From the NCBI RefSeq assembly GCF_039645975.1, contig NZ_CP147918.1:124001-188000 (forward strand): a DNA stretch of 64,000 nucleotides, given 5' to 3'. The DNA is from Sulfurimonas sp. HSL-1716 (GTDB taxonomy: Bacteria; Campylobacterota; Campylobacteria; Campylobacterales; Sulfurimonadaceae). The notes under the pieces were generated by a model, which saw nothing but the letters and a program-made list of their open reading frames with translations, had not been told where the DNA came from and made no database searches. Positions 37,600 to 60,907 of this stretch are shown here, piece by piece. Position numbers and translations under genes: made by a program. The stretch's first letter is position 1. Each line of letters opens with the position of its first letter.

Positions 37600-39096
37600 A
37601 TGGGTTTTAGAATAAATACAAACATTGCGGCTATGAATGCGCATACAAATGCGTTAATGAACAACCGTGCAATGGATAGTTCACTTAGTAAACTAAGTTC
37701 AGGTCTTCGTATTAATACTGCTGCTGACGATGCTTCTGGTATGTCAATCGCAGATAGTCTCCGTTCACAAGCTTCTTCTTTAGGTCAAGCGATCTCAAAT
37801 GCAAATGACGGTATCTCTATTATTCAGATCGCCGATAAAGCGATGGATGAACAGCTTAAAATTCTTGATAGTATCAAAACAAAAGCTACTCAAGCTGCAC
37901 AAGACGGTCAAAGTGCCGATTCTCGTAAAGCGCTTCAAGCTGATATCACTCGTCTTATGGAAGAGCTTGATAATATCGCAGGTACTACTTCGTTTAATGG
38001 TCAAAACCTTCTTTCAGGTCAGTTCACGAACAAAGAGTTCCAGATCGGTGCATACTCTAACCAATCGGTAAAAGCAAGTATCGGTGCGACAAGCTCTGAC
38101 AAAATAGGGAATGCGCGTTTTGAAACGACAGCAACGATCACTGCAAGCGGTACGGCAACGATGGTATTTACAAAAGCTGACGGTACAAATGACGTGACTT
38201 TAGAGAGCGTGATCATATCTACAAGTGCCGGTACAGGTCTTGGAGTATTGGCTGAGACTATCAATAAAAACTCAGATCTTCTTGGTGGTATCCAAGCAAG
38301 CTTCCAAGTTGTTGAAACAGGTTCTTCAGCAGTAGCTACTGGTACGATCTCTGGTCTTACTATTAACGGTACAAACATCGGTAACATTACTGTTAATGAT
38401 GCAAATGACAGCAGCGGTGTTCTTGTAGCGGCTATTAACAACTTCTCGTCAACTACCGGTGTTACAGCATCAATCGACAGCCGTGGTAACTTAAACCTTA
38501 CATCTGCTGATGGTCGTGCTATCCAAGTTTCTGGTACAAACTTGACAACTGTTGCAGGTCTGGCTTCTAATCAACAATTTAATGCAGGTCGTTTAACTCT
38601 TACACGTACCGGTGCTGCTGATATTCTTGTAAGTGCGACGGGAACAGGTGTAACTGCTTTAAATACGGCTATTACTGGTTCTGCTGAAACTACTACGAAC
38701 CTACGCGATATCAAAGGTGCTACTACTGCTGACATGGCAAGTGCGATGGGATTCAATGCGAATGCAAATGCGCTTAATATCAGTACTGACAAAGGTGCGG
38801 GTGTAACGACTCTTAAAGGTGCGATGGCTGTTATGAAAATAGCAGATGCTGCATTAAAAGGTCTAGATAAAATACGTTCAGACTTAGGTTCTGTTCAAAA
38901 CCAACTTGTTTCAACTGTTAACAATATTTCTGTTACTCAAGTTAATGTTAAAGCTGCGGAGTCTCAAATCCGTGACGTTGACTTCGCTTCAGAGAGTGCA
39001 AACTTCTCTAAACTGAACATCTTGGCACAATCTGGTTCATATGCTATGAGTCAGGCTAACGCTGTTCAACAAAACGTCCTAAGACTACTTCAGTAG
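37600..39096 (+). CDS. flaA: Flagellin, sigma28-driven (FlaA-like)
   Basis: 498 residues, the main filament subunit. Conserved D0/D1 ends: [18 protein letters not shown] at the N-terminus and FAMSQ-type [19 protein letters not shown] at the C-terminus. The centre (about 170-400) is variable, rich in Ser, Thr and Gly, and exposed on the filament, where Campylobacterota flagellins carry glycans on Ser/Thr. Campylobacterota flagellins also lack the residues that TLR5 recognises in other bacteria; I did not test that here. The next gene is a close paralogue. Its last codons take part in a conserved RNA fold. Confidence 0.96.
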
Positions 39097-39360: not shown

Positions 39361-40869
39361 ATGGGTTTTAGAATAAATACAAACATTGCGGCTATGAATG
39401 CTCATACAAATGCAATGCTGAACAACCGTGCTATAGATAGTTCACTTAGTAAACTAAGTTCAGGTCTTCGTATCAATACTGCCGCTGACGATGCTTCTGG
39501 TATGTCAATTGCAGATTCTTTACGTTCACAAGCTTCAGCTCTTGGTCAGGCAATAGCGAATGCAAATGACGGTATCTCTATTATTCAGATCGCCGATAAA
39601 GCGATGGATGAACAGATCAAGATTCTTGATACTATCAAGACAAAAGCTACTCAAGCTGCACAAGACGGTCAAAGTGCCGATTCTCGTAAAGCGCTTCAAG
39701 CTGATATCACTCGTCTTATGGAAGAGCTTGATAACATCGCAGGTACTACTTCGTTTAACGGACAGAACCTTCTTTCAGGTCAGTTCACGAACAAAGAGTT
39801 CCAAATCGGTGCTTTTTCGAATCAATCCGTAAAAGCGAGTATCGGTGCTACAAGCTCGGATAAAATCGGTAATGCACGTTTTGAAACGACTGCAACGATC
39901 ACTGCAAGCAGTACGTCGACTTTGACATTTAAAAATGTCGACGGAACAAACGACGTGACTTTAGAGAGCGTCATCATCTCTACAAGCGTGGGTACTGGTC
40001 TTGGAGTATTGGCTGAGGTTATTAATAAAAATGCAGATATCCTCGGGGGTGTCATGGCGAGTTATACGGTCATAGATACAGGGAGCACACCGATACAAAC
40101 GGGTACGATCTCAGGATTAACCATCAACGGCGTTAATATCGGTAATATCAATGTCAGTGATCCAAACGACAGCAACGGCGTACTTGTTGCATCTATCAAC
40201 AACTTCTCTTCGACTACGGGAGTCAGAGCTTCAACAGATGCACTGGGAAGATTGGAACTTACATCGAGCGATGGACGTGCGATCCAGGTATCGGGAACGA
40301 ACTTAACCGCATTGACGGGAATCGGAACTTCGGATCAAGATTTCAATGCAGGTCGTTTGACGCTTACCCGTACGGGTGCTGCTGATATTATCGTGAGTGC
40401 TTCGGGTGCCGGTAACAGTGCGACCACAGGGTTAGAATTTTCGATATTGAACTCTGCGGAAGCGACATCGAGTCTGCGCGATATCAAAGGTGCTACTACT
40501 GCTGATATGGCAAGTGCAATGGGCTTCAATGCAAATGCAAATGCGTTGAACATCACTTCTGATAAAGGTGCCGGTGTAACGACGCTTAAAGGTGCGATGG
40601 CCGTTATGAAGATAGCCGATTCCGCGCTTAGAGCACTTGACGCCGTACGTTCGGATCTCGGTTCCGTTCAAAATCAGCTTGTCTCTACCGTAAACAATAT
40701 CTCTGTGACGCAGGTCAACGTAAAATCGGCGGAATCTCAGATCCGTGACGTCGACTTCGCGGCAGAGAGCGCAAACTTCTCTAAACACAATATCTTGGCA
40801 CAATCCGGATCATTTGCTATGAGTCAGGCTAATGCCGTACAACAAAATGTGCTTAAACTGCTTCAGTAG
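39361..40869 (+). CDS. flaB: Flagellin, sigma54-driven (FlaB-like)
   Basis: 502 residues. N- and C-terminal D0/D1 regions are almost identical to the first flagellin, and long DNA runs in codons 55-150 are identical as well. The middle differs more, at both protein and synonymous level. In relatives this minor flagellin sits near the hook end. AAAAGGA precedes the ATG. It carries the same 3' RNA fold as flagellin 1. Confidence 0.96.
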
Positions 40870-41028: not shown

Positions 41029-44000
41029 ATGTCTATTTATGAACAAAATCTTCAAGCTCTTTTACAGGTGAACATAAAAGTAGCAACTACGCTTTTTGGG
41101 CTTAAAACCAATGAAAAGTTTGAAGTCTTCGTTGATAAAAAAGACCCTCTGAACATAAACATAGCCAGCAATAAAAACGGAAAAACACTGTATGAAGGCG
41201 TGCCTATCCGCCAGACGGAAGAGTATCTGAACTCTTTTATGAAAGAGTATCAGCGTTATCCGTATCTCTACTTTTTCGGGATGGGCAACGGCGTCTTTTA
41301 CAAGGCTCTTTTACAGGATGAAACACATAGAAGGATCGTCATTGTCGAGCCTGAAATAGAGATACTTTTTATGGCACTTCATTTCAATGATTTTTCAAAA
41401 GAGCTGGCTTCGGGCAGGCTTGTCATACTGCTGGCAGAGGATATAACCTTTTCTTTGGCTTCCGAGATATTCATGCATCCTGAATCGAGGCTGTTTTCAA
41501 AAACATACCAATTTCATATACTGCTTCCTTTTTACGAGAGTGAGTACGGGGAGCTTATCATAGCGATAAACAGGATGTTCCTGCAGGCGATCGAACACGC
41601 CGTGCGCGGGATTGGAAACGATTCTACCGATGCGCTTATCGGTTTGCAGCATCAGATCGCAAATGCCCAGAGAATGGTGCACACCCCGACTACGCTGGAG
41701 TTGATAAAAAAGGTAAAGAACAGTAACACGGCGGTCATAGTTTCGACGGGGCCTTCGCTTAAAAAACAGCTTCCGCTTCTAAAAAAGATAAAAGAGCATG
41801 TGACGCTTTTATGTGTCGACGCCAGTCTTCCTCTTTTGGAAAGAGAGGGTATAAAACCTGATGTCGTCATATCCATCGAACGTGTTATCGAGACAGCCAA
41901 GTTTTATCAGGAGACGTCAAAAGAGTTTCAAGAGAATATAGTGTTCGTCATAACCTCCATCGCTCATCCGGATCTTTTTAAGGATATAAAAGCAGGAACG
42001 CTGCAGATAAGTATGAGACCCTTTGGCTATACCAGTTATTTCGAGATGCCCGAGTACGGATATCTGGGGATAGGGATGAGTGCAGCGAACATGGCATATG
42101 AGATGATGTTTCATGCGAATTTTGAAAACTGTATCCTGATAGGGCAGGATCTGGCCTACGGCGCAGACGGTTCGACTCACAGTGAAGGACATCTTTACGG
42201 AATACAAGAGAGAGATAAGAACAAGCAGCGTTATATGATCCCTGCATACGGAGGCGAGGGCACCGTAGAAAGTACGGTCATATGGAGATTGTTCAAGAAT
42301 TTTTTTGAATCTGATATCGGTTATGCCAATGCCAAGGGGATAAAAACTGTTAACGCGACAGAAGGCGGAGCAAGGATAGAGGGTGCCGTGGAGATGCCTT
42401 TTGCCGAAGCGATCGAAAAATATGTTGACTTTACCCACAAAAAAGAGCAGATAAAGCTGACAAAACCCGATGAGAAAACGATAGAAGCAAATGTAGAGAA
42501 GATTGGCGTAAAAATAAACGAGATGCTCGCTTACGCTATAAAAATTGAAAAAGAGGTCGAGACCACGTTCTTGCATGTGGCAAGAGAGTGTGAAAGCATC
42601 GAAAGCGTTAAAGAAGATGAACGGTATGCAAAGCTTGATTATCAGGCTTTATCCAACGTGATGAGCGAGATCGACCGTATAAAAGAGTATTTTGATGATC
42701 AGAAATTTGCAAATATCTTCACCGATTCCACTCAGGCGATGATCCTGCATCAGGAGATCGAACTGGCAAAAATACAGGTAAGAAACGTTTTAACGGACAA
42801 CGATAAGCGTCAAAAGATGATAGACTGGGTGCTCGCGCACAGATATTGGCTCTTCTCACTCGCAGGGATGATGCAGGCTACCATAGATGCTATCAATATG
42901 GGCATAGAGATGAAAATAGACTTCAATACCATAACGCTCATACGCGTTTATATAGAAGATGAAGAGATAGATTTGCTACATATAGATCATTCTGACGAAT
43001 TCATGAAAAATCTTGCAGACATGAAGCGTCTGTGCATCAACTATATACTTGAAGATAAGTTTGCGCATAAAGTAGACAAACTGAAGTTTTGCTACAGTGA
43101 TGAAGCTAAAACTTTCAATGTCGAGGTGCATCTGCCAAGCAGAAGTGACGGGCTTTTTGACAAGTTCATGTTCGTCAATTCGCTCGAAGCGACTCTGGAT
43201 AAGAAACGGTTCGTCAGAGTGAAAAAAGATGAAGACGATGTGTTTACCGTCGGTCTGCTGCCGGTAGAAGGCATTTATGAAAACAAAGAATTCATAGAGT
43301 GCATCAAAGAGATCTCAAAGAAATTTCCAAAGGTCGTGTTCAAGTTTATCTGCTGGACACAAAGAGAGAGAGAATCTTCTGAGCATCTATTCTTCGGAGA
43401 ACGCGATTTCATACGCTTTATCGCTCCTAAAAGTATTTATGAGCTTTATCAGGAGATAGATATGTTTATCTATGATCTTGAAAAATTGGAAGATAAGCGA
43501 TTTTATGCTGTTCGACATATTTTAAACAGCACTCAAGAAGTAAACGTGCCTCAGTTGAAGATAGATCAAGACAATAATGAAGATGCAACTCTGAAGGAGC
43601 ATATAAACACTATAAACTTAGCAATTAGTTTAAGATATTTACAAAATATGCACATAGATGTGTATATAGACGATGAAAAAATAGATGAGATACATAAAGG
43701 CGGTAAAGCTGTAAATAACATCTTTGATCTTAAACAGCTTTGTATAGAATATAAACCTTGTGAAAAATATGCTTTGAGATCAAATCAATTACAATTTGTA
43801 TATATTGATGAAGACATGGACATAATGGCTTCGTTAGCTATACCATCAAGAGACGACGAAAATTATAATATATTCGCTTTTCAAAATTCACTAGAAACAA
43901 CCATCGATAAAGAACGACTTGAAAACCTTTATGAAAAAGATGCGATAGGCTTTTTAGCGCTGGAAGAAAACCTTCATGATATAGAATTTACAAACTATCT

Positions 44001-44571
44001 AAAAGAACTTACGAGTAGATTCCCGCAAGCAACTTTAAAAGCATTTTATTTTAATGATAAACAGAGAAAATTCTTAGAAAATATTTTTGCCAATAGTAAT
44101 AGTAAAATAGAGTTTTTGATACCTAATGATATTTATGATATCGCACAGGAAGTGGAGATATTTTCTATCAATTACTTGGCCAATATAGAAGTCGGTATAT
44201 GGGCAGAATATTATAAGCTGACAAAAAATCTAATAAAATATAATAGGAATATTTATGTTTCACTTTATAATAATACCGGCACGAAAAATACAACGTTATT
44301 AGATTATAATGCCGCTGATTATGAAAGCTTACAATATAAGATACTAGTTCAGGGTTTGAGCATAGGTAAAGATTTCGTAAAAAAATATAACAACAATTTT
44401 TGGATTTGTATTATGGAATATTATTTAAAAATGAATCACATAGAGTACACATTTAAACATAATAAGACACAATTTGATTTTTCTTTTTTCGATATTATAG
44501 ATTTAGTTTTAAAAGATAAAAGATTTAAAGATTACATGATAAAAATAAGAAGGCTGTTTCAAAATGGATAG
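41029..44571 (+). CDS. Motility accessory factor Maf (DUF115), enlarged, with a duplicated C-terminal module
   Basis: 1180 residues, much larger than typical Maf proteins (about 600-700). Residues about 200-450 hold the MAF_flag10/DUF115 glycosyltransferase-like core (VSTGPSLKKQLPLL, CVDASLPLL, IGMSAANMAYE, IGQDLAYG). Maf proteins add nonulosonate sugars to flagellin. The C-terminal half has two related modules of about 175 residues (about 637-820 and 874-1051): VYIEDEEID, LKFCYSDE, LPSRSD, NSLEATLDKKR in the first; VYIDDEKID, LQFVYIDE, IPSRDD, NSLETTIDKER in the second. Near residue 820 the DNA becomes far more AT-rich. AAAGGA precedes the ATG. Confidence 0.85.
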   Translation: MSIYEQNLQALLQVNIKVATTLFGLKTNEKFEVFVDKKDPLNINIASNKNGKTLYEGVPIRQTEEYLNSFMKEYQRYPYLYFFGMGNGVFYKALLQDETHRRIVIVEPEIEILFMALHFNDFSKELASGRLVILLAEDITFSLASEIFMHPESRLFSKTYQFHILLPFYESEYGELIIAINRMFLQAIEHAVRGIGNDSTDALIGLQHQIANAQRMVHTPTTLELIKKVKNSNTAVIVSTGPSLKKQLPLLKKIKEHVTLLCVDASLPLLEREGIKPDVVISIERVIETAKFYQETSKEFQENIVFVITSIAHPDLFKDIKAGTLQISMRPFGYTSYFEMPEYGYLGIGMSAANMAYEMMFHANFENCILIGQDLAYGADGSTHSEGHLYGIQERDKNKQRYMIPAYGGEGTVESTVIWRLFKNFFESDIGYANAKGIKTVNATEGGARIEGAVEMPFAEAIEKYVDFTHKKEQIKLTKPDEKTIEANVEKIGVKINEMLAYAIKIEKEVETTFLHVARECESIESVKEDERYAKLDYQALSNVMSEIDRIKEYFDDQKFANIFTDSTQAMILHQEIELAKIQVRNVLTDNDKRQKMIDWVLAHRYWLFSLAGMMQATIDAINMGIEMKIDFNTITLIRVYIEDEEIDLLHIDHSDEFMKNLADMKRLCINYILEDKFAHKVDKLKFCYSDEAKTFNVEVHLPSRSDGLFDKFMFVNSLEATLDKKRFVRVKKDEDDVFTVGLLPVEGIYENKEFIECIKEISKKFPKVVFKFICWTQRERESSEHLFFGERDFIRFIAPKSIYELYQEIDMFIYDLEKLEDKRFYAVRHILNSTQEVNVPQLKIDQDNNEDATLKEHINTINLAISLRYLQNMHIDVYIDDEKIDEIHKGGKAVNNIFDLKQLCIEYKPCEKYALRSNQLQFVYIDEDMDIMASLAIPSRDDENYNIFAFQNSLETTIDKERLENLYEKDAIGFLALEENLHDIEFTNYLKELTSRFPQATLKAFYFNDKQRKFLENIFANSNSKIEFLIPNDIYDIAQEVEIFSINYLANIEVGIWAEYYKLTKNLIKYNRNIYVSLYNNTGTKNTTLLDYNAADYESLQYKILVQGLSIGKDFVKKYNNNFWICIMEYYLKMNHIEYTFKHNKTQFDFSFFDIIDLVLKDKRFKDYMIKIRRLFQNG

Positions 44572-45526
44572 AGTAATTGTCCCAAAAGAATATAATTATA
44601 TCGGTGCATTTATTTCACTGAATTGTAATTTAAATTGCTCATATTGTATAAATTTAAATGAAGATGGAAGTGATCGTAAAAGTGTGTCCAGAAAACCGAT
44701 GAGCGGACTTGACTGGGCTAGAGCGATTAACAGACTGCATATTTTAAATAATGATCTGCCTGTTACGATCCAAGGCGGTGAACCGACAGTTCATAAAGAA
44801 TTTTATGAGATGATCAATGCCATAGATGACGGTATCAAACTTGATTTATTGACAAATATGGTATTTGATGTAGATGAGTTTATAAAAAAAGTCGATCCTA
44901 AAAAATTTACGCGTGAGGCAAAGTATGCGGCTATCCGTGTAAGTTATCATCCAGGTCAAAACGATATTGACAATCTAATAGAAAAAACTAAAAAGATGGC
45001 AGATGCAGGATTTTACGTTGGACTTTATTCTGTTGTCGTTCCTCAAAATAAAATGCATATCGAAGATGTTAAAAAACGGTGTATTGATCTTGGTATAGAT
45101 TTCAGGATTAAAGAATATCTTGGTTTTGATGGTGTAGAGTGGCACGGTACATACAAATTTCCAGAAGCCGTATCTCAAAAAATTGAAAAATATTGTGACT
45201 GTAAGACGAGTGAATTGATTATCGGACCAAGCGGCCATGTGTATAGGTGCCATTCGGATTTATACGAGAGCAGAACGCCAATAGGACATATTTTAGATCC
45301 AGATTTTAAAATAGAAGATGTATATCGTCCATGTTTTGTGTTTGGGCACTGTAACCCTTGCGATATCAAGGTTAAAACAAATCGTCACCAAATATTTGGA
45401 CACACGTCTGTAGAGATTAAAAATATACAAGAGCTGACAGAAAGTCAAAAAGAAAGATTGACAAAAAAAGATTTTGGAATGGGATATTATGATTATGAAA
45501 AAGATAGAGAGTTTTTAAATGGCTAA
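44564..45526 (+). CDS. Radical SAM protein with C-terminal cysteine-rich region (SPASM-like)
   Basis: 320 residues. Radical SAM cluster CNLNCSYC at 21-28, GGEPT near 67-71, and a C-terminal set of cysteines (YCDCK, RCHSD, FGHCNPCD) that could hold an extra cluster. It overlaps the Maf gene by 8 bases and the next radical SAM gene by 8 bases. The substrate is unknown; the context suggests a nucleotide sugar or a peptide linked to glycan. AT-rich DNA. Confidence 0.85.
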   Translation: MDRVIVPKEYNYIGAFISLNCNLNCSYCINLNEDGSDRKSVSRKPMSGLDWARAINRLHILNNDLPVTIQGGEPTVHKEFYEMINAIDDGIKLDLLTNMVFDVDEFIKKVDPKKFTREAKYAAIRVSYHPGQNDIDNLIEKTKKMADAGFYVGLYSVVVPQNKMHIEDVKKRCIDLGIDFRIKEYLGFDGVEWHGTYKFPEAVSQKIEKYCDCKTSELIIGPSGHVYRCHSDLYESRTPIGHILDPDFKIEDVYRPCFVFGHCNPCDIKVKTNRHQIFGHTSVEIKNIQELTESQKERLTKKDFGMGYYDYEKDREFLNG

Positions 45527-46583
45527 TTTTGATTTTGACGGACATAAGCTGTTCTATCAGTATGAAACGTCATATAAGCTTTTAACAGATCAGGCGGTAG
45601 ACCCAGTATATGTTGAATATTCTCCGGTGGGAAGCTGCAACCATAGATGTACTTTTTGCGCTTATGATTATATAGGATATCAATCGAGAAGACTGGACAC
45701 ACAAAAGACGATAGCGTCGATTAAGGCGTTTGGCAAACTCGGATGTAAAGCTATGCTTTTCGCAGGTGAGGGCGAACCGCTAATCCACCCTGACATCGAT
45801 GATTTTATTATTACCTGTTATGATAATAAAATTGACAGTGCTATATATACGAACGGTGTGCTTTTTACTCCAAAAAGAGCTGATAAAATACTTGATAAGC
45901 TGACATTTGTCAGGGTTTCTTTTAATGCGGGGACAAAAGAAAACTATAATGAAATACATAAAAGTGATGATTTTGAGAAGGTCGTTGAAAATTTAAAATA
46001 TGCTGTAAAGTTAAAAAAAGAGAAAAATATTCAAACCGATATAGGATTGCAGATAGTTGTCATACCGGAAAATTTGCATACAATCGTGGACCTTGCGAAA
46101 ATCGGTCGAGAAATAGGGGTAGACTATTTGGCGATCAAACCTTTTGTACAACACAATGATCAAGAGGGATATCAATTTTCGAAAAACTTCTCGCTACAAG
46201 AAGTAGAAAGCATTTTAGACGAAGCTGAACAATATTCGACAAAAGAGTATAAAGTAATCGCAAGAAAAGAAGCGTTCAGAAAATATCATGACAGAAGTTA
46301 TGATCATTGTCTGGCATTGCCGATCTTTAGTGTTGTACTAAGTGACGGTAATGTTTACAGCTGTGGTCCATATTTAAATAACAGTGATTATTGCTATGGG
46401 AATATTCATGAGCAAAGCGTTGAAGAAATTATGCATGGCGATAAAAGAAAGAAGATTTTAGACTTTGCAAAAAATCGCTTGGATTGTAAAGGCGAATGTA
46501 TGCCCAATTGTCGTTTAGATGCCATAAACAGAAGTTTATGGGAATTGAAAAATCCTACTTTAAAACATATAAATTTTATATGA
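45519..46583 (+). CDS. Radical SAM protein, paralogue A
   Basis: 354 residues. It begins with MANFDFDGHKL and ends with HINFI; cluster motif CNHRCTFC at 40-47, SAM site FAGEGEPLIHP, and a C-terminal cysteine set (CGPY, CKGECMPNC) suggesting a SPASM-type second cluster. The gene at 49434 shares the same ends and layout, so the two are paralogues about 30-40% alike by eye. Function is unknown; it stands directly before the transketolase halves. Confidence 0.85.
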   Translation: MANFDFDGHKLFYQYETSYKLLTDQAVDPVYVEYSPVGSCNHRCTFCAYDYIGYQSRRLDTQKTIASIKAFGKLGCKAMLFAGEGEPLIHPDIDDFIITCYDNKIDSAIYTNGVLFTPKRADKILDKLTFVRVSFNAGTKENYNEIHKSDDFEKVVENLKYAVKLKKEKNIQTDIGLQIVVIPENLHTIVDLAKIGREIGVDYLAIKPFVQHNDQEGYQFSKNFSLQEVESILDEAEQYSTKEYKVIARKEAFRKYHDRSYDHCLALPIFSVVLSDGNVYSCGPYLNNSDYCYGNIHEQSVEEIMHGDKRKKILDFAKNRLDCKGECMPNCRLDAINRSLWELKNPTLKHINFI

Positions 46584-46592
46584 GGGTCTGTT

Positions 46593-47387
46593 ATGGATTT
46601 AAAAGAGAGATCAACCAATATAAGAAAAAATATTCTTAGAATAGCCAATAGCTCAAAGGGACCGCATGTCGGTACTGCTCTGTCAAGTGTAGATATTTTA
46701 ACTACTTTGTATTTCAAAGTCTTGAAGATAGAAGATTTTAATGATGAAAACAGAGATATCTTCATTATGAGCAAAGGGCATGGAGCTATGGCTCTATATG
46801 CCACATTGTATGAAAAAGGGTATTTGTCAAAAGAAGAGTTGTCGAGTTATTATCAAAACGGGGGCAGCTTACCGGCGCATTTAGATATGACGACAAACCC
46901 GGCAATCGAAGTGTCAAGCGGAAGCTTAGGACACGGATTGCCTCAAGCACTCGGATTCGCATATTCTAAAAAATTAAAAAATCTAACTTCCAAAGTCTAT
47001 GTTTTGATGGGAGACGGAGAAGTTCAGGAAGGTTCTGTATGGGAAGCCGCGATGTTGGCTCCGAAGATGAAACTCAACAATTTAATCGCCATAGTGGACA
47101 GAAATGATTTGCAGGGATACGGTAAACCAAGTGATCTCGTTTCTTTTGAGTCAATAGAGGACAAGTTTAAGAGTTTCAATTGGAATGTCACAAGAATTGA
47201 TGGACACGACTTCAAAGAGATTGAAACTGCTCTAAATAATGAGTCGGATAAACCAAAGGTTATTATATGTGATACAACAAAAGGGAAAGGAATCTCTTTT
47301 ATGGAAAATGAACTCAAATGGCACTATTTCATAGTAACCGACGAAATCTTGCAACAAGGATTAAACGAGTTGGAGCATAGTCTATGA
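46593..47387 (+). CDS. Transketolase-like protein, N-terminal (thiamine diphosphate) half
   Basis: 264 residues. SKGHGAMALYA (60-70), PAHLD, SSGSLGHGLPQALG (108-121), the thiamine-diphosphate metal motif GDGEVQEGSVWEA (140-152) with NDLQ downstream. It needs the C-terminal half at 47384, which overlaps by ATGA. Together they form a two-chain transketolase or DXS-like enzyme of about 560 residues. In sugar clusters such enzymes move a two-carbon unit; the housekeeping transketolase would be a single chain elsewhere. Confidence 0.9.
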   Translation: MDLKERSTNIRKNILRIANSSKGPHVGTALSSVDILTTLYFKVLKIEDFNDENRDIFIMSKGHGAMALYATLYEKGYLSKEELSSYYQNGGSLPAHLDMTTNPAIEVSSGSLGHGLPQALGFAYSKKLKNLTSKVYVLMGDGEVQEGSVWEAAMLAPKMKLNNLIAIVDRNDLQGYGKPSDLVSFESIEDKFKSFNWNVTRIDGHDFKEIETALNNESDKPKVIICDTTKGKGISFMENELKWHYFIVTDEILQQGLNELEHSL

Positions 47388-48280
47388 GAAATACTGCCGC
47401 AAAAAAAATATTTGAATACTGTAAAAGCAATTCAGATGGTTTCTTAATATCGGGAGATGCCGGTTTTGGTGTATGGGAAGAGTTCCAGCAAGAGTTGGAA
47501 AAACAGTATATAAATACGGGTATAAATGAAGCAGCTATGACCGGATTAGCAGCGGGGATGGCTCTGAGCGGACATAAAGTTTTTATCTATAATATAATCC
47601 CTTTTTTAATTATGCGCAACTATGAGCAAGTACGCGTAGATATAGCATATCAGAATTTGCCCGTTATCATGATAGGTATTGGTTCGGGTATCACGTATGC
47701 TCCTGCGGGAATGACGCATTATGCACTAGAAGATATCGCTCTGGCTAAAACTATGCCTAATCTTAATATTATTTCACCTTCAGATCCTGTTCAAGTGGAG
47801 AAGGCTCTTGAATACGCGATCAGCAGTGCAAATCCTACTTTTATAAGGCTTTCAAAAAGCGGAGAAGCGGTTCTTTTCGATCAAGAGATCGATATTTCAA
47901 AACCGATCATAATGAAAAAAAGGGAAAAAAAGGCTCTTCTTTTTCACGGTTCAATTGTTGATGAGGTAATGAAAGCCTCTTTAGAGCTTAAAGATGTAGC
48001 AATCATTTCCATGCCCATGATCTCACCGATTGATGAAAATGAGGTAATAAAAATTTTGCAAAACTATAATGAAATATATATCGTAGAAGAACATTTTAAA
48101 GAGGGTGGACTGGGGAGCATTTTATGTGATTTGGCTCAAACAAAAAGGATATTGGTCGATATCATAAAAATTGCGGTCCCGAATCATTATATACATGAGA
48201 TCGGAAATTGTGCTTATTTGCGACAAAAGTTACAAATAGACGCCGATTCAATAATAAAAATTATCAAAAGTGAAAAATAA
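47384..48280 (+). CDS. Transketolase-like protein, C-terminal half
   Basis: 298 residues: pyrimidine-binding domain with the catalytic glutamate in GINEAAMTGLAAGMA (about 45-60), the segment YAPAGMTHYALEDIALAKTMPN, and a C-terminal transketolase domain (FHGSIVDEVMKAS, YIVEEHFKEGGLGS). Coupled to the N-terminal half by a 4-base overlap. See that entry for the joint reaction. Confidence 0.9.
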   Translation: MRNTAAKKIFEYCKSNSDGFLISGDAGFGVWEEFQQELEKQYINTGINEAAMTGLAAGMALSGHKVFIYNIIPFLIMRNYEQVRVDIAYQNLPVIMIGIGSGITYAPAGMTHYALEDIALAKTMPNLNIISPSDPVQVEKALEYAISSANPTFIRLSKSGEAVLFDQEIDISKPIIMKKREKKALLFHGSIVDEVMKASLELKDVAIISMPMISPIDENEVIKILQNYNEIYIVEEHFKEGGLGSILCDLAQTKRILVDIIKIAVPNHYIHEIGNCAYLRQKLQIDADSIIKIIKSEK

Positions 48281-49432
48281 ATGAGTATTAATTGTCCTGT
48301 ATGTCATGACAAAGAGTATATTACTATTGTGACCAAAGAGGAACAGGGGTTTAGTACCTTTGGGCGAATTGAAGATATCGCACATATAGATTTTAGTATT
48401 AGCAGATGTCAAAAGTGCGGATTCATCTTTCAGGATTCTGCTTTGAACAGCAAAGAATATGAAGAACTTGGAAAAACGACTTACAAAAATTATACGTTAA
48501 TGGATAACAGAATATTTCCATCGACAGAGGATTACTATAAAGACGCCCTAGATTTTTTAACCGAGCATTTGTCGTTTGATAACATAACAAATGTTTTGGA
48601 AATAGGCTCTAACCGAGGGGATTTCTTATATTTGCTCAAAGATGCAAATCAAAATTGCAATATCCTTGGGATAGACCCGTTAAAAAGGGAAGCTCAAGTA
48701 CCTACCATCAACGGATTATTTACAAAAGAACTTTTTTCAAATAAATTCGATTTGGTCATAACAAGACATGTGTTGGAGCATATAGACAAGCCGCAAGAGT
48801 TTTTACAAGAGATACATGCCGTTTTAAATGAGGGAGCATATATTTTTGTAGAAGTTCCAAATACAAAACGGGATCTGGAGGATGTCAGCGAGTTTTTTAT
48901 TACAGAACACATAGGTTATTATTTTAAAGAAACCCTGCGCTTGGTCTTACAGGCTAGCGGTTTTACGGAAATACTTATATCTGATGATTTTAGCAACGGT
49001 ATCTATGCTATCTATCAAAAAAACAGTAATAGCAACAATACAATGATATATGAGCAAAACGATCATTATCAAACGTTGATTGAGAGCTATTTGGCCGGGC
49101 AGGCTGCAACATTGCAGAGTATTCAAGAGTTCTGCGATCAGGGATATAAAGTGGCATTTTACGGTTTTGGCAATGTATTCTTGTCGGTGTATCCAATCGT
49201 TAAAAAGGTTTTGGCACAGAGATGTGACGTAACGATATTTGACGATACTCCGAGTAAAATAGGTGCCCGTTACGACGGCATTACTATACAATCGACTGCC
49301 GGCATTGATAAAGAGTCTAAATATGTTTTCATAATATGTACAATGAATAGACAGCATATTGAAAATATCAAAACGAATATCCGTAATAAAAACATTAGTG
49401 AATTCAGTATTATAGTGCCATGGAGGGAATAA
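48281..49432 (+). CDS. C-methyltransferase-type SAM enzyme with N-terminal zinc site
   Basis: 383 residues in three parts: a zinc-binding start with C5, C8, C43 and C46; a central SAM-methyltransferase fold (VLEIGSNRGDFLYLL, RHVLEHIDKPQEFL); and a C-terminal Rossmann-like part (YGFGNVFLSVYPIV, IFDDTPSKIGARYDG). This layout is that of NDP-hexose C-methyltransferases (TylCIII/NovU type), which place a methyl branch on a keto-sugar. Starts directly after the transketolase half. Confidence 0.8.
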   Translation: MSINCPVCHDKEYITIVTKEEQGFSTFGRIEDIAHIDFSISRCQKCGFIFQDSALNSKEYEELGKTTYKNYTLMDNRIFPSTEDYYKDALDFLTEHLSFDNITNVLEIGSNRGDFLYLLKDANQNCNILGIDPLKREAQVPTINGLFTKELFSNKFDLVITRHVLEHIDKPQEFLQEIHAVLNEGAYIFVEVPNTKRDLEDVSEFFITEHIGYYFKETLRLVLQASGFTEILISDDFSNGIYAIYQKNSNSNNTMIYEQNDHYQTLIESYLAGQAATLQSIQEFCDQGYKVAFYGFGNVFLSVYPIVKKVLAQRCDVTIFDDTPSKIGARYDGITIQSTAGIDKESKYVFIICTMNRQHIENIKTNIRNKNISEFSIIVPWRE

Positions 49433-49433
49433 A

Positions 49434-50513
49434 ATGAGTGATAAATACAATATGGACGGCCATAAACTACTATGGCATCTAGATAGAGTAGCAGATTGGC
49501 AACAGGGAAAACGTATTGCTCCTTTACACATTGATATGGGTATCTCCACAGGATGTAATCAGGCATGCAGATATTGTTATGGAAGCATACAGGGGAATGT
49601 CAGTTATCAAAAAAATGACAATATGCCCACAGAGCGCGTGAAAAGCTTTTTTAAAGATGCAAAAGATGCCGGAGTCCGTTCTATCGCTTTAATAGGCGAG
49701 GGAGAAAATACCCTGCATCCTGATTTAATAGAGATCGTAGAGTATGGAAAATCGATCAATATGGATCTTGGTATGGCTACTAATGGTATGAATATTCCAA
49801 GAGATAAAATCAAAAATTTACTTGAGTCTTTAGTATGGATCAGGGTGAATTTAAGTGCTTCTACTCCGGAAAAATTCCATCATATTCACAGAGTAAGTAA
49901 AAACATGTTTGAGCATGTTCTAGAAAATATCAGACTTATGGTGAATATGAAAAAAGAGTATAATCTAAGTACGACCATAGGTATACAGATGGTTATGCTA
50001 AACGACAATATTCAAGATGTTGTCAGACTCGCAGAGATAGGACGCGAATTGGGCGTGGATTATTTTGTCGTGAAACCAACTTCCGATACTGCAAATAATG
50101 ACTTAGGCTCAGACTATGGCAAGTATAATGATTCACAAGATGTTTTTACACAGGCGGAAAGTTTTTCAACTGATAACTATAAAGTTATCATTAAATGGAA
50201 TAAGATTTTAACAGGCGGCAAGAAAGAGTATAACGTATGTAACGGTACGAAATTCTTATTGCAAATTAGCGGCAATGGCAATGTTTTCCCTTGCGGACAC
50301 TGGTTTGATATCGAAAAAGAAAAATATCTCATGGGAAATATCATAGAGAACTCTTTTATGGATATACTTGCATCTGAGCGCTACTGGCAAGTACAAGAGA
50401 ATATGAAAAATGTCAATGTTCATACAGGATGTGAAAGCAACTGCAGGCATGAATATATTAATCGTTTCTTGTATAACCTCCAACAAAAACCAGATCATAT
50501 AAATTTTATATAA
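49434..50513 (+). CDS. Radical SAM protein, paralogue B
   Basis: 359 residues. Begins MSDKYNMDGHKLLWHLD and ends with HINFI; cluster CNQACRYC at 41-48, SAM site LIGEGENTLHP, and C-terminal cysteines (CGHW, CESNCRHE). Same ends and order of motifs as the protein at 45519. The substrate is unknown. Two related radical SAM enzymes on either side of the transketolase and methyltransferase suggest successive steps of one pathway. Confidence 0.85.
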   Translation: MSDKYNMDGHKLLWHLDRVADWQQGKRIAPLHIDMGISTGCNQACRYCYGSIQGNVSYQKNDNMPTERVKSFFKDAKDAGVRSIALIGEGENTLHPDLIEIVEYGKSINMDLGMATNGMNIPRDKIKNLLESLVWIRVNLSASTPEKFHHIHRVSKNMFEHVLENIRLMVNMKKEYNLSTTIGIQMVMLNDNIQDVVRLAEIGRELGVDYFVVKPTSDTANNDLGSDYGKYNDSQDVFTQAESFSTDNYKVIIKWNKILTGGKKEYNVCNGTKFLLQISGNGNVFPCGHWFDIEKEKYLMGNIIENSFMDILASERYWQVQENMKNVNVHTGCESNCRHEYINRFLYNLQQKPDHINFI

Positions 50514-50525
50514 GAAGGTCCAGTT

Positions 50526-51359
50526 TTGAAAATATGCATTTTAGGAAGTACAGGTGTATTGGGGGTGGCATTAAGAAAAGCACTATTGTCCAAAGGTGTG
50601 GATTTTTTTGTTCTATCTCATGAAGAAGTAGATATAGAAAATTTTGAAGAACTAAAAAGTATTTTAGAGCAGGAAAAGCCAACACATATTATAAATACTG
50701 TTGCGATAGTAGGTATAGAGCCTTGTGATGAAAAACCGTTGGAAGCTTTTAGTATAAATACACTACCTTCATATCTCATATCGAATTTTTGTTTGCAACG
50801 CGATATGACTTATGTATATATTAGTACACATGCAGTTTTTGACGGTACAAAAGAGGATTATTATTATGAGACCGACAAACCTAGACCTATGAATATTTAT
50901 GCGGGTACGAAATTATTGGCAGAACAGTTCGTTGAAAGTATATGTGATAAGTTTTATATCGTTAGAGTACCCACAATGTTCGGAAACAGAGAGAACAATA
51001 AAAAAGGGTTTACCGATAAAGTGCTGGAATGGCTAAGATCAGAGAAAGATGTGAAAGTAGCTACGGACAAAATAGATACGTTATCTTTTTCTGATGACAT
51101 AGCAGAGCAGATTGTACAAATGATTCTCATGAAGTATGAATACGGAACATATCATATCGCTAATGAAGGGTCTTGTTCGTTTTACGAATTTGTATCGGAA
51201 GTCGCTGCAATATTGGGGATAAAAAAAGATATTATCAAGGCGCTGGATAAAGATTTCCCGTCTAAGTATTATAAACCGTTAAGGACGCCGATAGCTTCTG
51301 TACGAGCTCCTAAATTAAGGGGCTGGAAAGAAGCGTTAAGAAATTTTTTACGTGAGTAA
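50526..51359 (+). CDS. RmlD-like SDR nucleotide-sugar reductase
   Basis: 277 residues. NAD(P) loop GSTGVLG at 7-13, THIINTVAIVGIEPCDEKP, the ISTHAVFDG region and the catalytic YxxxK in YAGTKLLAEQ. It resembles dTDP-4-dehydrorhamnose reductase (about 290-300 residues). It would reduce a 4-keto-sugar, perhaps after C-methylation. The start is TTG with AAGG upstream. Confidence 0.85.
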   Translation: MKICILGSTGVLGVALRKALLSKGVDFFVLSHEEVDIENFEELKSILEQEKPTHIINTVAIVGIEPCDEKPLEAFSINTLPSYLISNFCLQRDMTYVYISTHAVFDGTKEDYYYETDKPRPMNIYAGTKLLAEQFVESICDKFYIVRVPTMFGNRENNKKGFTDKVLEWLRSEKDVKVATDKIDTLSFSDDIAEQIVQMILMKYEYGTYHIANEGSCSFYEFVSEVAAILGIKKDIIKALDKDFPSKYYKPLRTPIASVRAPKLRGWKEALRNFLRE

Positions 51360-51368
51360 GGGACAATA

Positions 51369-52298
51369 ATGAAGATTTTGATCATTAAACTCGGATTATC
51401 TGAGACTCTTGATAGCGAAACCAGTAAAATTGTCAGTCTTGGCGATGTTGTAAGATGCACGGTCGTTTTAGAACCATTGAAAAAAAAATATGAGAATCCC
51501 CATATTACATGGGTTGTTTCAAAAGAAGCACAGGAATTAGTTAAAAACAATGCCTTGATCGACAGAGTTTTAGTCTGGGATGAATTCGTTCCGTTTGTCC
51601 TTATGAGAGAAAAGTATGATATCGTGATCAATTTAGAAAAAATTGACGGTATTTGTGCTTTGACAGATATGATCAATGCCTGGGAAAAGATAGGCTTTCG
51701 ATTTGATGAGATTGATGGAAAATACGATACATATTTTCAATCAGTCAGAGCAAAAGAGTATATACAAAATAAAGAAACGCATAAGCAGATATGGCAGCAG
51801 GTTATTTTAAATATGCTGGGCATAGAATGGAAAGACCAGAAATATTCTTTAGGGTATAAACCAAAAACAGAGGAAATCCGTAGAGTCGGATTAAACTATC
51901 TGGTAGGTTCAAAATGGCCTTCCAAAGCCATGTCGAAATTTAAATGGGAAGAACTTGAAAAACGTTTAGAAGATAGGAACATCCCTTACAGTTGGCAAGA
52001 GGGCAAAAATAATTTATTGGATTACATCGAGTGGATTAATTCGTGCAAAGTTATTGTAACTCAAGATTCACTGGGACTTCATCTCGCTTTAGCCCTTGAT
52101 AAATATGTTATCTGCCTGTTCGGTCCTACATCAGCAGATGAAATTTATTTTTATGGCAAAGGTCTCGCTTTAAATTTAAGTGAACAATTCGAGTGTAAAT
52201 ACTGTTACTCTCCTATATGCACCAATAATGAATTTTGTATGGATTCGTTAGATTTACAAAAACTGATTGATACAATTGAAACATATATGGATAAGTGA
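51369..52298 (+). CDS. GT9 family glycosyltransferase (heptosyltransferase-like)
   Basis: 309 residues. Rossmann start KILIIKLGLSETLD and SLGDVVRCTVVLEPLKKKY, and the donor-binding TQDSLGLHLALALDKYVICLFGPT near 230-253 are typical of ADP-heptose:LPS heptosyltransferases. It probably transfers a sugar to a surface glycan. TGATG overlap with the next gene. Confidence 0.85.
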   Translation: MKILIIKLGLSETLDSETSKIVSLGDVVRCTVVLEPLKKKYENPHITWVVSKEAQELVKNNALIDRVLVWDEFVPFVLMREKYDIVINLEKIDGICALTDMINAWEKIGFRFDEIDGKYDTYFQSVRAKEYIQNKETHKQIWQQVILNMLGIEWKDQKYSLGYKPKTEEIRRVGLNYLVGSKWPSKAMSKFKWEELEKRLEDRNIPYSWQEGKNNLLDYIEWINSCKVIVTQDSLGLHLALALDKYVICLFGPTSADEIYFYGKGLALNLSEQFECKYCYSPICTNNEFCMDSLDLQKLIDTIETYMDK

Positions 52299-53839
52299 TG
52301 TCTATACAGAAGTTTATCATTTACGGAGCAGGAACAGAAGGAAGAATTGCAAAGCTGAAGATGGAGTACGACAAAGAGGATGTCATATGTTTCATTGATC
52401 AGAATCTGCAAGGGCAGAAGGTAGAAGGGCTGGATGTTCTTTCAATTGATGAGGGAGTCAGGTTGGCGGATAAATTTAACTATAAGATAGTGATTTCATC
52501 GCAAAAACATAAAAAAACCATGAAACATACTCTCAAAATGCATGGATTTAAAAATTATCAAGTTTTTTCATATAATACTCTTTTTGAAGCCGTTAAATAC
52601 TCTTTATCACCAAGATGGAAAATTAATAAAAGAAGATATATAAAAATTGTCGAATTTTTATATCCTGTATTTTTAGTCTTGTTTTTCCCATTTGCCCTTA
52701 TGTTATATATATTGAATTTTAGGTTAGTTTATAATTTTAGATTTCCCGGCTTTGGACATATGGCATTAGAACCGGATGCTTTACTCGCAAATGATGATTT
52801 TAAAAAATACAAGTTTATAGCAATAGTTGATGAAACGAATACCAGTAATAGATATTTATTGGATATCGTAACTAGCAAATTTATAACAATCAAAAATTTT
52901 TATTTGTTTCACTTATTTTATTTTATGTTCCATTATAAGTTCTTAAATTATAACGCGGGTAATAATTTTATGAAGATGGTAGATAAATATTTTCTAGTTG
53001 AAGATAATAATATAATGGAAAAAACAGATCTAAACGTATTGAAATATATGCCAAGTGTCTATAGGCCATTAGTGAATAATGAGGAGCAAAACTTTTTTTT
53101 TCCGGAGGGAGAGAAAGAAAATTGTCGAGAGATCTTAGACAAGAGTTTTGGTATCAAGGAAAATGATTGGTTTGTTTGTGTTCATGCAAGAGATGATAGA
53201 GAGTATAACCAGATAAGATCATGCAATATACACAGTTTTGAGCAAGCTATCGAATTTATTACGTCCAAGGGCGGTTTTGTGATACGATTAGGGGACAAAG
53301 GCGTGCAGAAGCTATCTTATAACAACAGTAAAGTTATAGACTATGCAAATAGTAATGTTAAAAGTAAAATAATGGATCTCTATTTGATGTCTGAGCAAAC
53401 TTTTTTGATCGGGACAATAACAGGTGTTAGCGATGTGTCACAAATGTTTAGAAGACCTGTGATTAGCACTAATGTCGCATCGTGGGTTCAGCCAAGATAT
53501 ATGAAAGGTGATATTTACCTATTGAAAATGTTTAAAAATAAAGTTAATGACCTGATTATCGGAATATCTGAGTATATGGATAATAAAATATATCTTTCCG
53601 CAATACGAGATGAAATTGAGATTTTAAATAAATATCAAGTTTTAGATAATACGGCAGAGGAGATATTAAATGCCACTAAGGAGATGTACGCTGTTTTATT
53701 TGAGAATAAACAGCCGTTTAATTTTGCAGATCAAGATCAATATAGAAAAAAGTTTCCTGAAGATTCTATGCCGAGAATAGGAAAAGCAAATGTGTCGCAA
53801 TATTTTTTGGACAAATATAAAAATATATTCGGTATATAA
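52298..53839 (+). CDS. TIGR04372-type glycosyltransferase with N-terminal nucleotide-binding domain
   Basis: 513 residues. The first 100 residues (FIIYGAGTEGRIAKLKM, ICFIDQNLQGQKVEG) look like a PglD/CoA-binding-like Rossmann domain. A hydrophobic segment lies at about 120-150 (FLYPVFLVLFFPFALMLYIL). The rest (CVHARDDREYN, FVIRLGDKGVQKL, FLIGTITGVSDVSQMFRRPVI) matches a putative glycosyltransferase family seen in surface-polysaccharide clusters. The fusion is uncommon. ATG follows one GTG codon in frame and overlaps the previous stop. Confidence 0.7.
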   Translation: MSIQKFIIYGAGTEGRIAKLKMEYDKEDVICFIDQNLQGQKVEGLDVLSIDEGVRLADKFNYKIVISSQKHKKTMKHTLKMHGFKNYQVFSYNTLFEAVKYSLSPRWKINKRRYIKIVEFLYPVFLVLFFPFALMLYILNFRLVYNFRFPGFGHMALEPDALLANDDFKKYKFIAIVDETNTSNRYLLDIVTSKFITIKNFYLFHLFYFMFHYKFLNYNAGNNFMKMVDKYFLVEDNNIMEKTDLNVLKYMPSVYRPLVNNEEQNFFFPEGEKENCREILDKSFGIKENDWFVCVHARDDREYNQIRSCNIHSFEQAIEFITSKGGFVIRLGDKGVQKLSYNNSKVIDYANSNVKSKIMDLYLMSEQTFLIGTITGVSDVSQMFRRPVISTNVASWVQPRYMKGDIYLLKMFKNKVNDLIIGISEYMDNKIYLSAIRDEIEILNKYQVLDNTAEEILNATKEMYAVLFENKQPFNFADQDQYRKKFPEDSMPRIGKANVSQYFLDKYKNIFGI

Positions 53840-53866: not shown

Positions 53867-54691
53867 TTGAAAAAAAATATTCTATTTATAGTTGGAAGCC
53901 CAAGAAGCGGGACGACTTGGATCCAAAAAGTAATGGCTACACACTCTTTGTTTGAGACAGGACAGGAAAGCGATTTCTTTACTACGATCGGAGCGCATAA
54001 TTTAAAGGTTTTTAAAAATATGCTTGAATATAAAGATGTAAGATGCGGACTTAGTCTGCCGGCTTATTTCACATATGAGCAGTTTTTAAGCTCTCAAAGA
54101 GAGCTGTTTTATAAAATGATCAGTTATACTGCGGATCTATCCGGTGAAAAATATTTCATAGAAAAAACTCCTTCTCATGCTTTGGTTATCGATACGATCA
54201 ACGAGATCCTGCCCGAGTCAAAATTCATTTTGATGATCAGAAATCCTTACGATGTCGTAAAATCGATATTAAACGGTGCTAAGACCTGGGGTAAAGGGCA
54301 TTTTCCCGCTACCGTAGAGAGTGCAGCGGATATGTGGTACGCTCATAACAAACTAGCTCTGGATTCTTTAAAAAATATCTCAAAAGAAAGATATAAAATC
54401 ATCAGATATGAAGATCTCGAAAAAAACAATACTCTGATAAGTGATATGTTTTCTCTGTGTAACGTTGAGCTAAGTGCAGAAGAGATCGCCGAACTATTTG
54501 CCATTGCTAATGAGTACAGGATAAAGATCTACGGTGAATTTGGTACGCAAGAGGGTAAAGAATGCGAGGAAGACGAGATGTTTAACAAACATACGAGAAA
54601 AGAGAAGCTGATAGAACTCAGTGATGAAGAAAAAAGTTTCATAGACGATTTTTTACATACAAAAGAGATTTACGATGAATTCAGATATTAA
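53867..54691 (+). CDS. PAPS-dependent sulfotransferase
   Basis: 274 residues with the 5'-phosphosulfate loop GSPRSGTTW (10-18) and the 3'-phosphate motif IRNPYDVVKS near 125. Such enzymes move sulfate from PAPS to a hydroxyl of a sugar, lipid or protein. The start is TTG after GAGGAAG. It overlaps the next glycosyltransferase gene by 17 bases. A second sulfotransferase is at 60904. No PAPS-making genes are in the window. Confidence 0.88.
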   Translation: MKKNILFIVGSPRSGTTWIQKVMATHSLFETGQESDFFTTIGAHNLKVFKNMLEYKDVRCGLSLPAYFTYEQFLSSQRELFYKMISYTADLSGEKYFIEKTPSHALVIDTINEILPESKFILMIRNPYDVVKSILNGAKTWGKGHFPATVESAADMWYAHNKLALDSLKNISKERYKIIRYEDLEKNNTLISDMFSLCNVELSAEEIAELFAIANEYRIKIYGEFGTQEGKECEEDEMFNKHTRKEKLIELSDEEKSFIDDFLHTKEIYDEFRY

Positions 54692-59769: not shown

Positions 59770-60907
59770 TAAGCATATCGCACTGATAGCTCCGTTTGGA
59801 TGGGCCGGAGTGAGTACGCCAATTGTCAGCAGTGTTGAGTATTTGCATTCATTTGGTTACAAAATAGATCTATATTATGATAAAAATGAAGCTTGTAATC
59901 GTATGGGATTGAATGAGCCGTTATTTAATTTGGATAATGTGAACATATATTTTTATGATTATAAAGGCGAAGATATTCTAGAAGAGTATATCGATTTGCA
60001 AGTTAATAAAAAGGACTTAGAATTTATAGATTTTATCACTTCTAAAGATATAGATTATGATTTTCTGATCGGTTATGATGAGGAGGGTTTAATCCGTGCC
60101 GGGATATATGGATTAAAAAATAATATACGGTTTTATTATCACTCATTAGAATTTTATGAGAGAGAAGATCAAAAGAAAGTCGCTGAGAAGTTTTTTGCAA
60201 ACAAATCAGAAGGAATTTTTACGCAGGATAAATATAGAGCCGAAATTTTATCTCAAACGCTTCATGTCCCTATAAGTAAATTATCCGTTGTTTATAACAG
60301 TACAATAGGTGAACCGATTTTTGAAAAGAGCGATTTTTTTAGAGATATGTTTGATATTGATAAGGACAAAAAAATTTGTTTGGTGACGGGGACTTTGATG
60401 AGCATTACCGGTGTTGATAAAATACTCGAGTCATTTAAAAACTGCAGCGATGAATTTGTCCTGGTCTTACATGGCTGGCTGCCGGATAGGAATATTAAAG
60501 AGTGTATAGAATCTGCAATGAAAAGCAACGGCGGTCAAATTTATTACTCAAATACAATATTGGAGCACAAAGATAAGTTTAAAATATTTGCATCAGCCGA
60601 TATAAGTTTCGTATATTACGAACCTGTGAATTTAAATTTAAAATATGCCGCATGGTCTTCGGGTAAATTTTTTGATTCCGTAAGATGCGGGGTGCCCGTA
60701 ATCGCAAATAATATACCTAATATGAAAACATTGGTGGAAGATAACGGCTGCGGCATAGTCTTAGATGATTTTAACGAAGTACAGAAAGCTTTTGAGAACA
60801 TAATGAGCAATTATGAAATATACAAAAAAAATTGTTATAAAACATATTTGAAATATGATTTCAAGGAGTCATTTAAAAATGCTCTTGGCAAGGATCTGAA
60901 AATATGA
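59762..60907 (+). CDS. GT4-like glycosyltransferase
   Basis: 381 residues. IALIAPFGWAGVSTPIVSSVEYL at the start, a C-terminal GT-B half with VTGTLMSITGVDKILESF, LHGWLPDRN and the donor-side KFFDSVRCGVPVIANNIPNM. The acceptor is unknown. A return to AT-rich DNA and different codon use starts here. Confidence 0.75.
   Translation: MTDKHIALIAPFGWAGVSTPIVSSVEYLHSFGYKIDLYYDKNEACNRMGLNEPLFNLDNVNIYFYDYKGEDILEEYIDLQVNKKDLEFIDFITSKDIDYDFLIGYDEEGLIRAGIYGLKNNIRFYYHSLEFYEREDQKKVAEKFFANKSEGIFTQDKYRAEILSQTLHVPISKLSVVYNSTIGEPIFEKSDFFRDMFDIDKDKKICLVTGTLMSITGVDKILESFKNCSDEFVLVLHGWLPDRNIKECIESAMKSNGGQIYYSNTILEHKDKFKIFASADISFVYYEPVNLNLKYAAWSSGKFFDSVRCGVPVIANNIPNMKTLVEDNGCGIVLDDFNEVQKAFENIMSNYEIYKKNCYKTYLKYDFKESFKNALGKDLKI

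Follow-up and report, generated by a model that had tools for sequence, protein, structure and literature searches.

A radical SAM and split-transketolase gene block in Sulfurimonas, one form of a recurrent module proposed to make a branched nucleotide sugar

In the genome of Sulfurimonas sp. HSL-1716, a block at positions 44564-51359 of a 64,000-nucleotide stretch (contig NZ_CP147918.1, positions 124,001 to 188,000; hereafter the window) encodes three radical S-adenosylmethionine (SAM) proteins (RS1, RS2 and RS3), the two chains of a split transketolase (TKN and TKC), a methyltransferase and an RmlD-like reductase. The pairing of RS2 with a two-chain thiamine diphosphate (ThDP) enzyme is a real gene module, beyond chance, because it recurs in 69 of 86 loci that were retrieved by RS2 alone. 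On balance, we consider it rather likely that this block represents one version of a module which occurs widely and in which radical SAM and two-chain ThDP enzymes together produce a nucleotide sugar with a two-carbon branch. More tentatively, we propose a widespread class of pathway in which radical SAM enzymes, and not NAD-dependent 4,6-dehydratases, would make a nucleotide sugar of heptose origin accessible to two-carbon branching by a ThDP enzyme, either a split transketolase or an interchangeable E1-type pair; a second radical SAM enzyme would then tailor the result to yield a branched higher sugar for bacterial surfaces and flagella.

Gene calls throughout are mechanical open reading frames. 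The span holds seven genes, all on the + strand, each overlapping its neighbour or lying no more than 12 bases from it; a preliminary description of this DNA had the spacing right and counted eight genes, a number that is reached only by adding the flanking maf-type or GT9 gene. RS1 (44564-45526; PF04055), the radical SAM protein of a GT9-associated supply route, is followed by RS2 (45519-46583; PF04055 and PF13186), a radical SAM/twitch protein and the proposed keto-sugar former. TKN (46593-47387; PF00456, 1e-41; split transketolase 6yak, 1e-61) is the N-terminal, predicted ThDP-binding chain and TKC (47384-48280; PF02779/PF02780) the C-terminal chain, and they are succeeded by the methyltransferase (48281-49432; PF13489, 6e-19), by RS3 (49434-50513; radical SAM and SPASM domains by Pfam), a second radical SAM/twitch paralogue and proposed tailoring enzyme, and by the NAD(P)-dependent RmlD-like reductase (50526-51359; PF04321, 3e-54; TIGR01214, 178 bits, under the cut-off of 224). 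As had been described, RS2 and RS3 share a DGHKL motif near the start and HINFI at the end and bracket the transketolase and methyltransferase genes, and coordinates and Pfam likewise bear out a third radical SAM protein before this group and a reductase after it.

RS2 relatives were gathered regardless of their neighbours, by a genome search within the phylum and a profile scan of named genomes; the scan with an RS2-family profile returned 64 loci, a single-protein scan with RS2 alone gave no match, and 86 loci were readable once duplicates had been removed. The fetched loci are finite stretches, so that absence here denotes absence within about 9 kb, and the family labels used to compare synteny come from hidden Markov models built for the present analysis. 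In the 69 loci with a two-chain ThDP enzyme, its genes lie on the same strand as RS2 every time and mostly just downstream of it, within about 120 bases in 33 loci and within about one gene in 52. The slot is occupied by a split transketolase in 46 loci and by an E1-alpha/beta pair (PF00676 with PF02779/PF02780) in 23, and the two never occur in one locus. RS2 loci span Campylobacterota, Nitrospirota, Thermodesulfobacteriota, Myxococcota, Planctomycetota, Omnitrophota, Elusimicrobiota, Pseudomonadota and others, and RS2 together with the ThDP pair is present in about a dozen phyla. Distant RS2-like matches (L082-L084; L numbers denote individual loci), with 23-26% identity and no ThDP pair, are not taken to belong to this system.

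The preliminary description had suggested a search for the five-gene order from RS2 to RS3 across genomes. The core of this order, RS2-TKN-TKC, is conserved across phyla, and the closest arrangement, in the Helicobacteraceae genome UBA6016 (L091), runs RS1-RS2-TKN-TKC-methyltransferase-RS3 with a different methyltransferase and an RS2 that is 74% identical; L074 and L077, also among the closest, combine RS1-RS2-TKN-TKC with RmlD and RS3. The exact set, with the window's own methyltransferase, was not found in the other loci examined.

Around the core, the loci vary in supply and tailoring genes. RS1 is found near RS2 in 26 loci, often with a distinctive GT9, and GmhA/HldE heptose-pathway genes are found near RS2 in 41 of the 86, in many cases together with genes for a nucleotidyltransferase and a GalE-like epimerase. 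The two sets are mutually exclusive (Fisher 3.5e-10, to be taken as a rough guide, since the test ignores phylogeny and the loci are not phylogenetically independent, so that p-values are overstated). GmhB in L021 passes the curated cut-offs; the proteins labelled GmhA- and HldE-like score under the cut-offs of the families they match. Downstream of the core there is usually RS3, or else a pair formed by RS4 and a class I methyltransferase; the window block is of the RS1-GT9-RS3 form. In several loci a family of about 590-780 residues with no Pfam match stands directly before RS1 (L080, 4273-6603; L055, L056, L063, L074, L078, L079 and L081), in the slot held by maf in the window, and is possibly another transferase for the same sugar. 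A different order, GT9-RS2-E1alpha-E1beta-GT2-RS3-RS1, is seen in L113, L115, L122 and L142 (Omnitrophota, Desulfuromonadaceae and an uncultured bacterium) and suggests that the sugar is lipid-linked or part of the wall and has nothing to do with flagella; L115 also has two small Pfam-less proteins before RS1, with similar ones in L142.

A phylum-wide search with TKN recovered split transketolases without RS2 nearby, and 16 such loci were read. In L158, genes for glucose-1-phosphate cytidylyltransferase (TIGR02623), CDP-glucose 4,6-dehydratase (TIGR02622) and RfbH (NF011936), all above curated cut-offs, surround TKN-TKC and a reductase, and heptose genes are absent; L155, L156, L160 and L161 resemble this locus. 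An operon of this kind produces CDP-4-keto-3,6-dideoxyglucose, on which YerE acts in the yersiniose pathway (PMC12247030). In L157 and L169, TKN/TKC is instead accompanied by GDP-mannose 4,6-dehydratase (GMD), in L169 together with HddA and HddC. Genes with the 4,6-dehydratase motif occur in 8 of the 16 RS2-free transketolase loci as against 5 of the 86 RS2 loci (Fisher 5e-5, phylogeny again being ignored). Because the motif is rare where RS2 is present and frequent where it is not, RS2 can be read as a stand-in for the dehydratase, and the simplest reading is that it replaces this enzyme as the ketone maker.

Alternatively, the ketone may be made by an epimerase or oxidoreductase elsewhere and branched by the ThDP pair, with RS2 acting only after branching, through radical epimerisation, dehydration or rearrangement. 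A late or repeated step would suit several Campylobacter-type loci in which RS2 has a close second copy (RS2'), and a source of the ketone might be sought in the GalE-like genes that adjoin RS2 in about 34 loci. However, the motif of the GalE-like proteins is SSS, that of epimerases and not of 4,6-dehydratases, so that they were rejected for the latter role; they are absent from nearly all RS1-type loci, and in 33 loci the ThDP genes follow directly behind RS2. We regard this order of events as improbable, though the strongest of the alternatives. RS2' itself is present as two adjacent half-length frames in the Campylobacter-type loci L066, L070, L078 and L079, hinting at frameshifts or on/off variation of this copy.

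The best matches of TKN and TKC in the PDB are the split transketolases 6yak and 6yaj, and in TKN the residues of the ThDP and donor sites are the canonical ones. Canonical transketolases use His461 and Asp469 (E. coli numbering) to contact the phosphate of the substrate and the hydroxyl of the acceptor. Among the TKC relatives of RS2 loci, 47 of 47 retain the catalytic Glu and also the second His of the active site, but the equivalent of His461 is lost in every one (Gly in 46, Ala in 1) and that of Asp469 is replaced by Ser, Leu, Ala or Gln, again in 47 of 47. Most have Lys at the Arg520 position or lack that position, and the whole C-terminal domain is missing from 25 of the TKC proteins; the Arg358 position, read by eye in the alignment, is kept in the long form of TKC, and Ser385 is Gly. 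The window pair therefore has the two-chain ThDP domains and catalytic Glu of a canonical transketolase, but neither His461 nor Asp469, both of which are retained in the housekeeping transketolase of the same genome and in the split transketolase of Carboxydothermus. The same two losses are seen in the TKC of the RS2-free 4-keto-sugar operons. In L164, L165 and L168, split transketolase pairs with an altered active site lie beside genes for short-chain dehydrogenase/reductase (SDR) and adenylating-enzyme-like proteins, a different context from which it follows that altered split transketolases have more than one use. A further split transketolase, in L162 (6576-8275), retains His461, Asp469 and Arg520 within an operon with NeuB-like and SDR genes, and its active site looks canonical.

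These substitutions bear on a second alternative, in which the split transketolase would be near-ordinary and make an unusual heptulose or longer ketose phosphate, to be activated by GmhA/HldE-type enzymes and later epimerised or deoxygenated by the radical SAM enzymes. Such chain extension would agree with the intact ThDP and donor sites of TKN and with the heptose route indicated by the GmhA/HldE-like genes and by GmhB. It is at odds with the absence of His461 and Asp469 from all TKC relatives and of the Arg520-bearing region from about half, and with the split transketolases of the same kind that adjoin CDP-glucose 4,6-dehydratase and RfbH where heptose genes are lacking; moreover, an exchange with an E1-alpha/beta pair would be senseless for making a ketose phosphate. 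We consider chain extension unlikely.

All three radical SAM proteins retain the CxxxCxxC motif and the radical SAM domain, and RS2 and RS3 also have a SPASM domain by Pfam. The RS1 family shows 39-67% identity across phyla. RS3 proteins from different phyla form a single clade (tree support 100/100), which makes RS2 and RS3 long-standing partners that did not arise by a recent duplication. AlphaFold2 models built from 41 (RS2) and 22 (RS3) natural sequences reached a predicted local distance difference test (pLDDT) score of 89.3 and 85.3, and both models adopt over their full length a radical SAM barrel with a C-terminal auxiliary domain, as in DesII. Indeed, DesII, a radical SAM enzyme that acts on a nucleotide sugar and yields a keto sugar, is the best full-length fold match of RS2 (Z 25.8, 337 residues, 4.1 A, 18% identity) and of RS3 (Z 26.3, 338 residues, 4.0 A, 13% identity); BlsE follows with Z 24.5 for RS2 and 26.2 for RS3, and BtrN matches RS2 with Z 18.8. 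After CxxxCxxC, four further Cys are spaced 17-18/39-44/3 in RS2 and 17/45-49/3 in RS3, which corresponds to the one-auxiliary-cluster twitch pattern of BtrN (four Cys, about 17/44/2), although such a pattern alone is no proof of the reaction. RS2 scores 52.6 bits against the DesII family model TIGR04426, with its cut-off of 450, and falls far below the other curated radical SAM models as well. By these models RS2 and RS3 appear to stand outside every named equivalog family tested, and by their predicted folds they look like nucleotide-sugar radical SAM enzymes.

Many SPASM proteins mature peptides, and a third alternative is that those of the block modify flagellin or a small peptide and that the sugar genes are incidental. 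SkfB and SuiB stand high in the fold lists of RS2 and RS3, and the top NCBIfam match of the radical SAM proteins is a metalloenzyme maturase, below threshold. Yet two enzymes of nucleotide-linked sugars, DesII and BlsE, lead both fold lists or are tied for the lead, the partners of RS2 are nucleotide-sugar enzymes in phylum after phylum, many RS2 loci show no flagellin gene, and no precursor-peptide gene was noticed in the block, where no dedicated search for one was made. Peptide or protein maturation thus appears quite unlikely.

The methyltransferase had been described as a zinc-containing C-methyltransferase. Its PF13489 SAM-methyltransferase domain and N-terminal CxxC pairs, with a weak match to D-mycarose 3-C-methyltransferase (E 2e-4), are consistent with a putative C-methyltransferase-like enzyme, but neither the zinc domain (PF08421) nor the C-terminal domain (PF08484) of that family was matched up to E 5; a protein with both, PF08421 below its cut-off, is encoded in the related island L055. 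The mosaic nature of glycosylation islands, and the fact that this mid-block gene is not shared with related loci, would fit genes that are neighbours by coincidence and share no pathway, an account that could still hold for the methyltransferase but is refuted for the RS2-TKN-TKC core by the recurrence of RS2 with a same-strand ThDP pair across phyla. The ancient RS3 clade that travels along also speaks against coincidence, which is extremely improbable for the block as a whole.

For the branching pathway, we infer the chemical steps, their order, the substrate and the target from the gene set, its conservation, the active-site changes, the fold similarities and the context swaps observed above. 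RS2, of DesII/BtrN type with one extra [4Fe-4S] cluster, would use a 5'-deoxyadenosyl radical to turn a nucleotide-activated sugar into a keto sugar, the task that falls to NAD-dependent 4,6-dehydratases in relatives; in most related loci, those with heptose genes, the starting sugar would probably derive from a heptose. TKN/TKC would then move a hydroxyacetyl (C2) unit from a ketose donor onto the ketone, so that a branched sugar carrying a tertiary alcohol results. In other loci the E1 pair would take over this step, which is proposed because of the active site, the gene context and the precedents of AviB1/B2, Pau11/12, KbDH and miharamycin. The methyltransferase, RS3 and the RmlD-like reductase may tailor the branched sugar, and GT9, Maf or both may transfer the product, here probably to flagellin to judge from the neighbourhood. 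The suggestion of a branched or carbon-extended nucleotide sugar in the preliminary description thus gains from the altered transketolase site, the transketolases of 4-keto-sugar operons, the E1 swap and the DesII/BlsE-like folds, the product itself being a prediction.

Several observations weigh against this pathway. Of the 86 RS2 loci, 17 are without a ThDP pair (4 are distant homologues and 4 lie at contig edges). No nucleotide-sugar-forming gene was found within the block, which means that the precursor has to be supplied from outside. The loss of His and Asp fits a ketone acceptor but would be compatible with other altered substrates too. Finally, the peptide maturase SkfB ties with BlsE in the fold list of RS2 (24.5), and therefore the fold alone leaves the substrate of RS2 unfixed.

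The block lies next to flagellin and glycosyltransferase genes. A GT9 (heptosyltransferase-like) glycosyltransferase gene (51369-52298, + strand; PF01075), of the subfamily that accompanies RS1/RS2 in other phyla, starts 10 bases past the block end. Upstream, a candidate Maf/PseD-type flagellin glycosyltransferase gene (41029-44571, + strand; PF01973, 2e-40) overlaps RS1 by 8 bases and is preceded by two near-identical flagellin genes on the same strand (37600-39096 and 39361-40869, the second with Flagellin_N and Flagellin_C confirmed by Pfam). A Maf beside flagellin, as in Maf flagellin glycosylation systems, is thus present, with an NF050051 (FlagModPseD) score of 484 bits that lies under the cut-off of 670. 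The earlier suggestion that the sugar is perhaps destined for flagellin is based on gene neighbourhood, and no flagellin gene was seen in some of the loci that contain the module. Simple phase-variation tracts were searched for in the block and none were found. Directly after GT9 comes a large protein (52295-53839) whose N-terminal stretch is NeuD-like and whose TIGR04372 glycosyltransferase domain scores above cut-off. The island also holds two sulfotransferase-like genes (53867-54691, by PF13469, and 60904-61686, by eye), which suggest that the glycan may be sulfated.

As the preliminary description had supposed, no characterised pathway with this gene order was found: the open-access literature on flagellin, heptose and nucleotide sugars yielded no paper describing a sugar pathway of radical SAM enzymes and a split transketolase. 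A region of Campylobacter fetus (CFF8240_1582-1612) with several radical SAM proteins, two transketolase subunits, a methyltransferase and glycosyltransferases is presented as a recombination region, with no function proposed in the passage concerned (PMC5013579); by this published gene listing alone it is probably the same module, and phase-variable radical SAM genes appear among those listed for C. fetus (PMC6321876). According to a 2025 review, ketone-branching split transketolases have been proposed only for Streptomyces antibiotics, all 13 candidates known to it being from Streptomyces and none characterised in vitro (PMC12247030). The module supplies dozens of new candidates from about a dozen phyla, with defined partners and the His461/Asp469 loss as a signature. 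A further suggestion is that bacteria, those with Campylobacter-type genomes included, regularly employ radical SAM chemistry in making surface sugars, and the flagellin glycan of this group may contain a monosaccharide not yet described.

Compared by description only, the split transketolases of miharamycin and amipurimycin (PMC12247030) are, like that of the block, two-chain enzymes encoded with a proposed ketone-forming enzyme; there, however, this is an oxidoreductase in an antibiotic cluster, whereas here radical SAM enzymes stand in a cell-surface glycan context in other phyla. Close relatives of the block likewise combine the transketolase with a ketone-forming nucleotide-sugar enzyme (CDP-glucose 4,6-dehydratase or GMD), a role that in the window would fall to RS2. 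Rif15 of rifamycin biosynthesis, as it is described in PMC6002545, is also a two-chain transketolase of specialised metabolism that transfers a C2 keto unit from a ketose phosphate to a ketone-bearing acceptor, but it forms a C-O bond on rifamycin S outside any sugar pathway, and the likeness is one of description, not of sequence. In the CDP-yersiniose pathway of Yersinia, the ThDP enzyme YerE branches CDP-4-keto-3,6-dideoxyglucose (PMC12247030). TKN/TKC relatives hold the operon position of YerE in L155, L156, L158 and L160, but YerE is a single-chain enzyme of the decarboxylase family that uses pyruvate, whereas TKN/TKC is a two-chain enzyme of the transketolase family, and the window block contains neither a YerE-like single-chain ThDP decarboxylase nor CDP-glucose genes. 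Three ThDP superfamilies are linked to the carbon-branching of keto sugars in the literature (PMC12247030; AviB1/B2 and Pau11/12 in PMC4753412), and since split transketolases and E1-alpha/beta pairs are two of these three, the occupants of the slot beside RS2 count towards branching. AviB1/AviB2, Pau11/Pau12 and KbDH-alpha/beta (alphaKADH2 type) are E1-alpha/beta pairs with proposed or demonstrated C2 branching of keto sugars, and the same type of pair is found in 23 RS2 loci, while the window has the transketolase version. The parts are of known kinds; their combination, and its breadth, are new.

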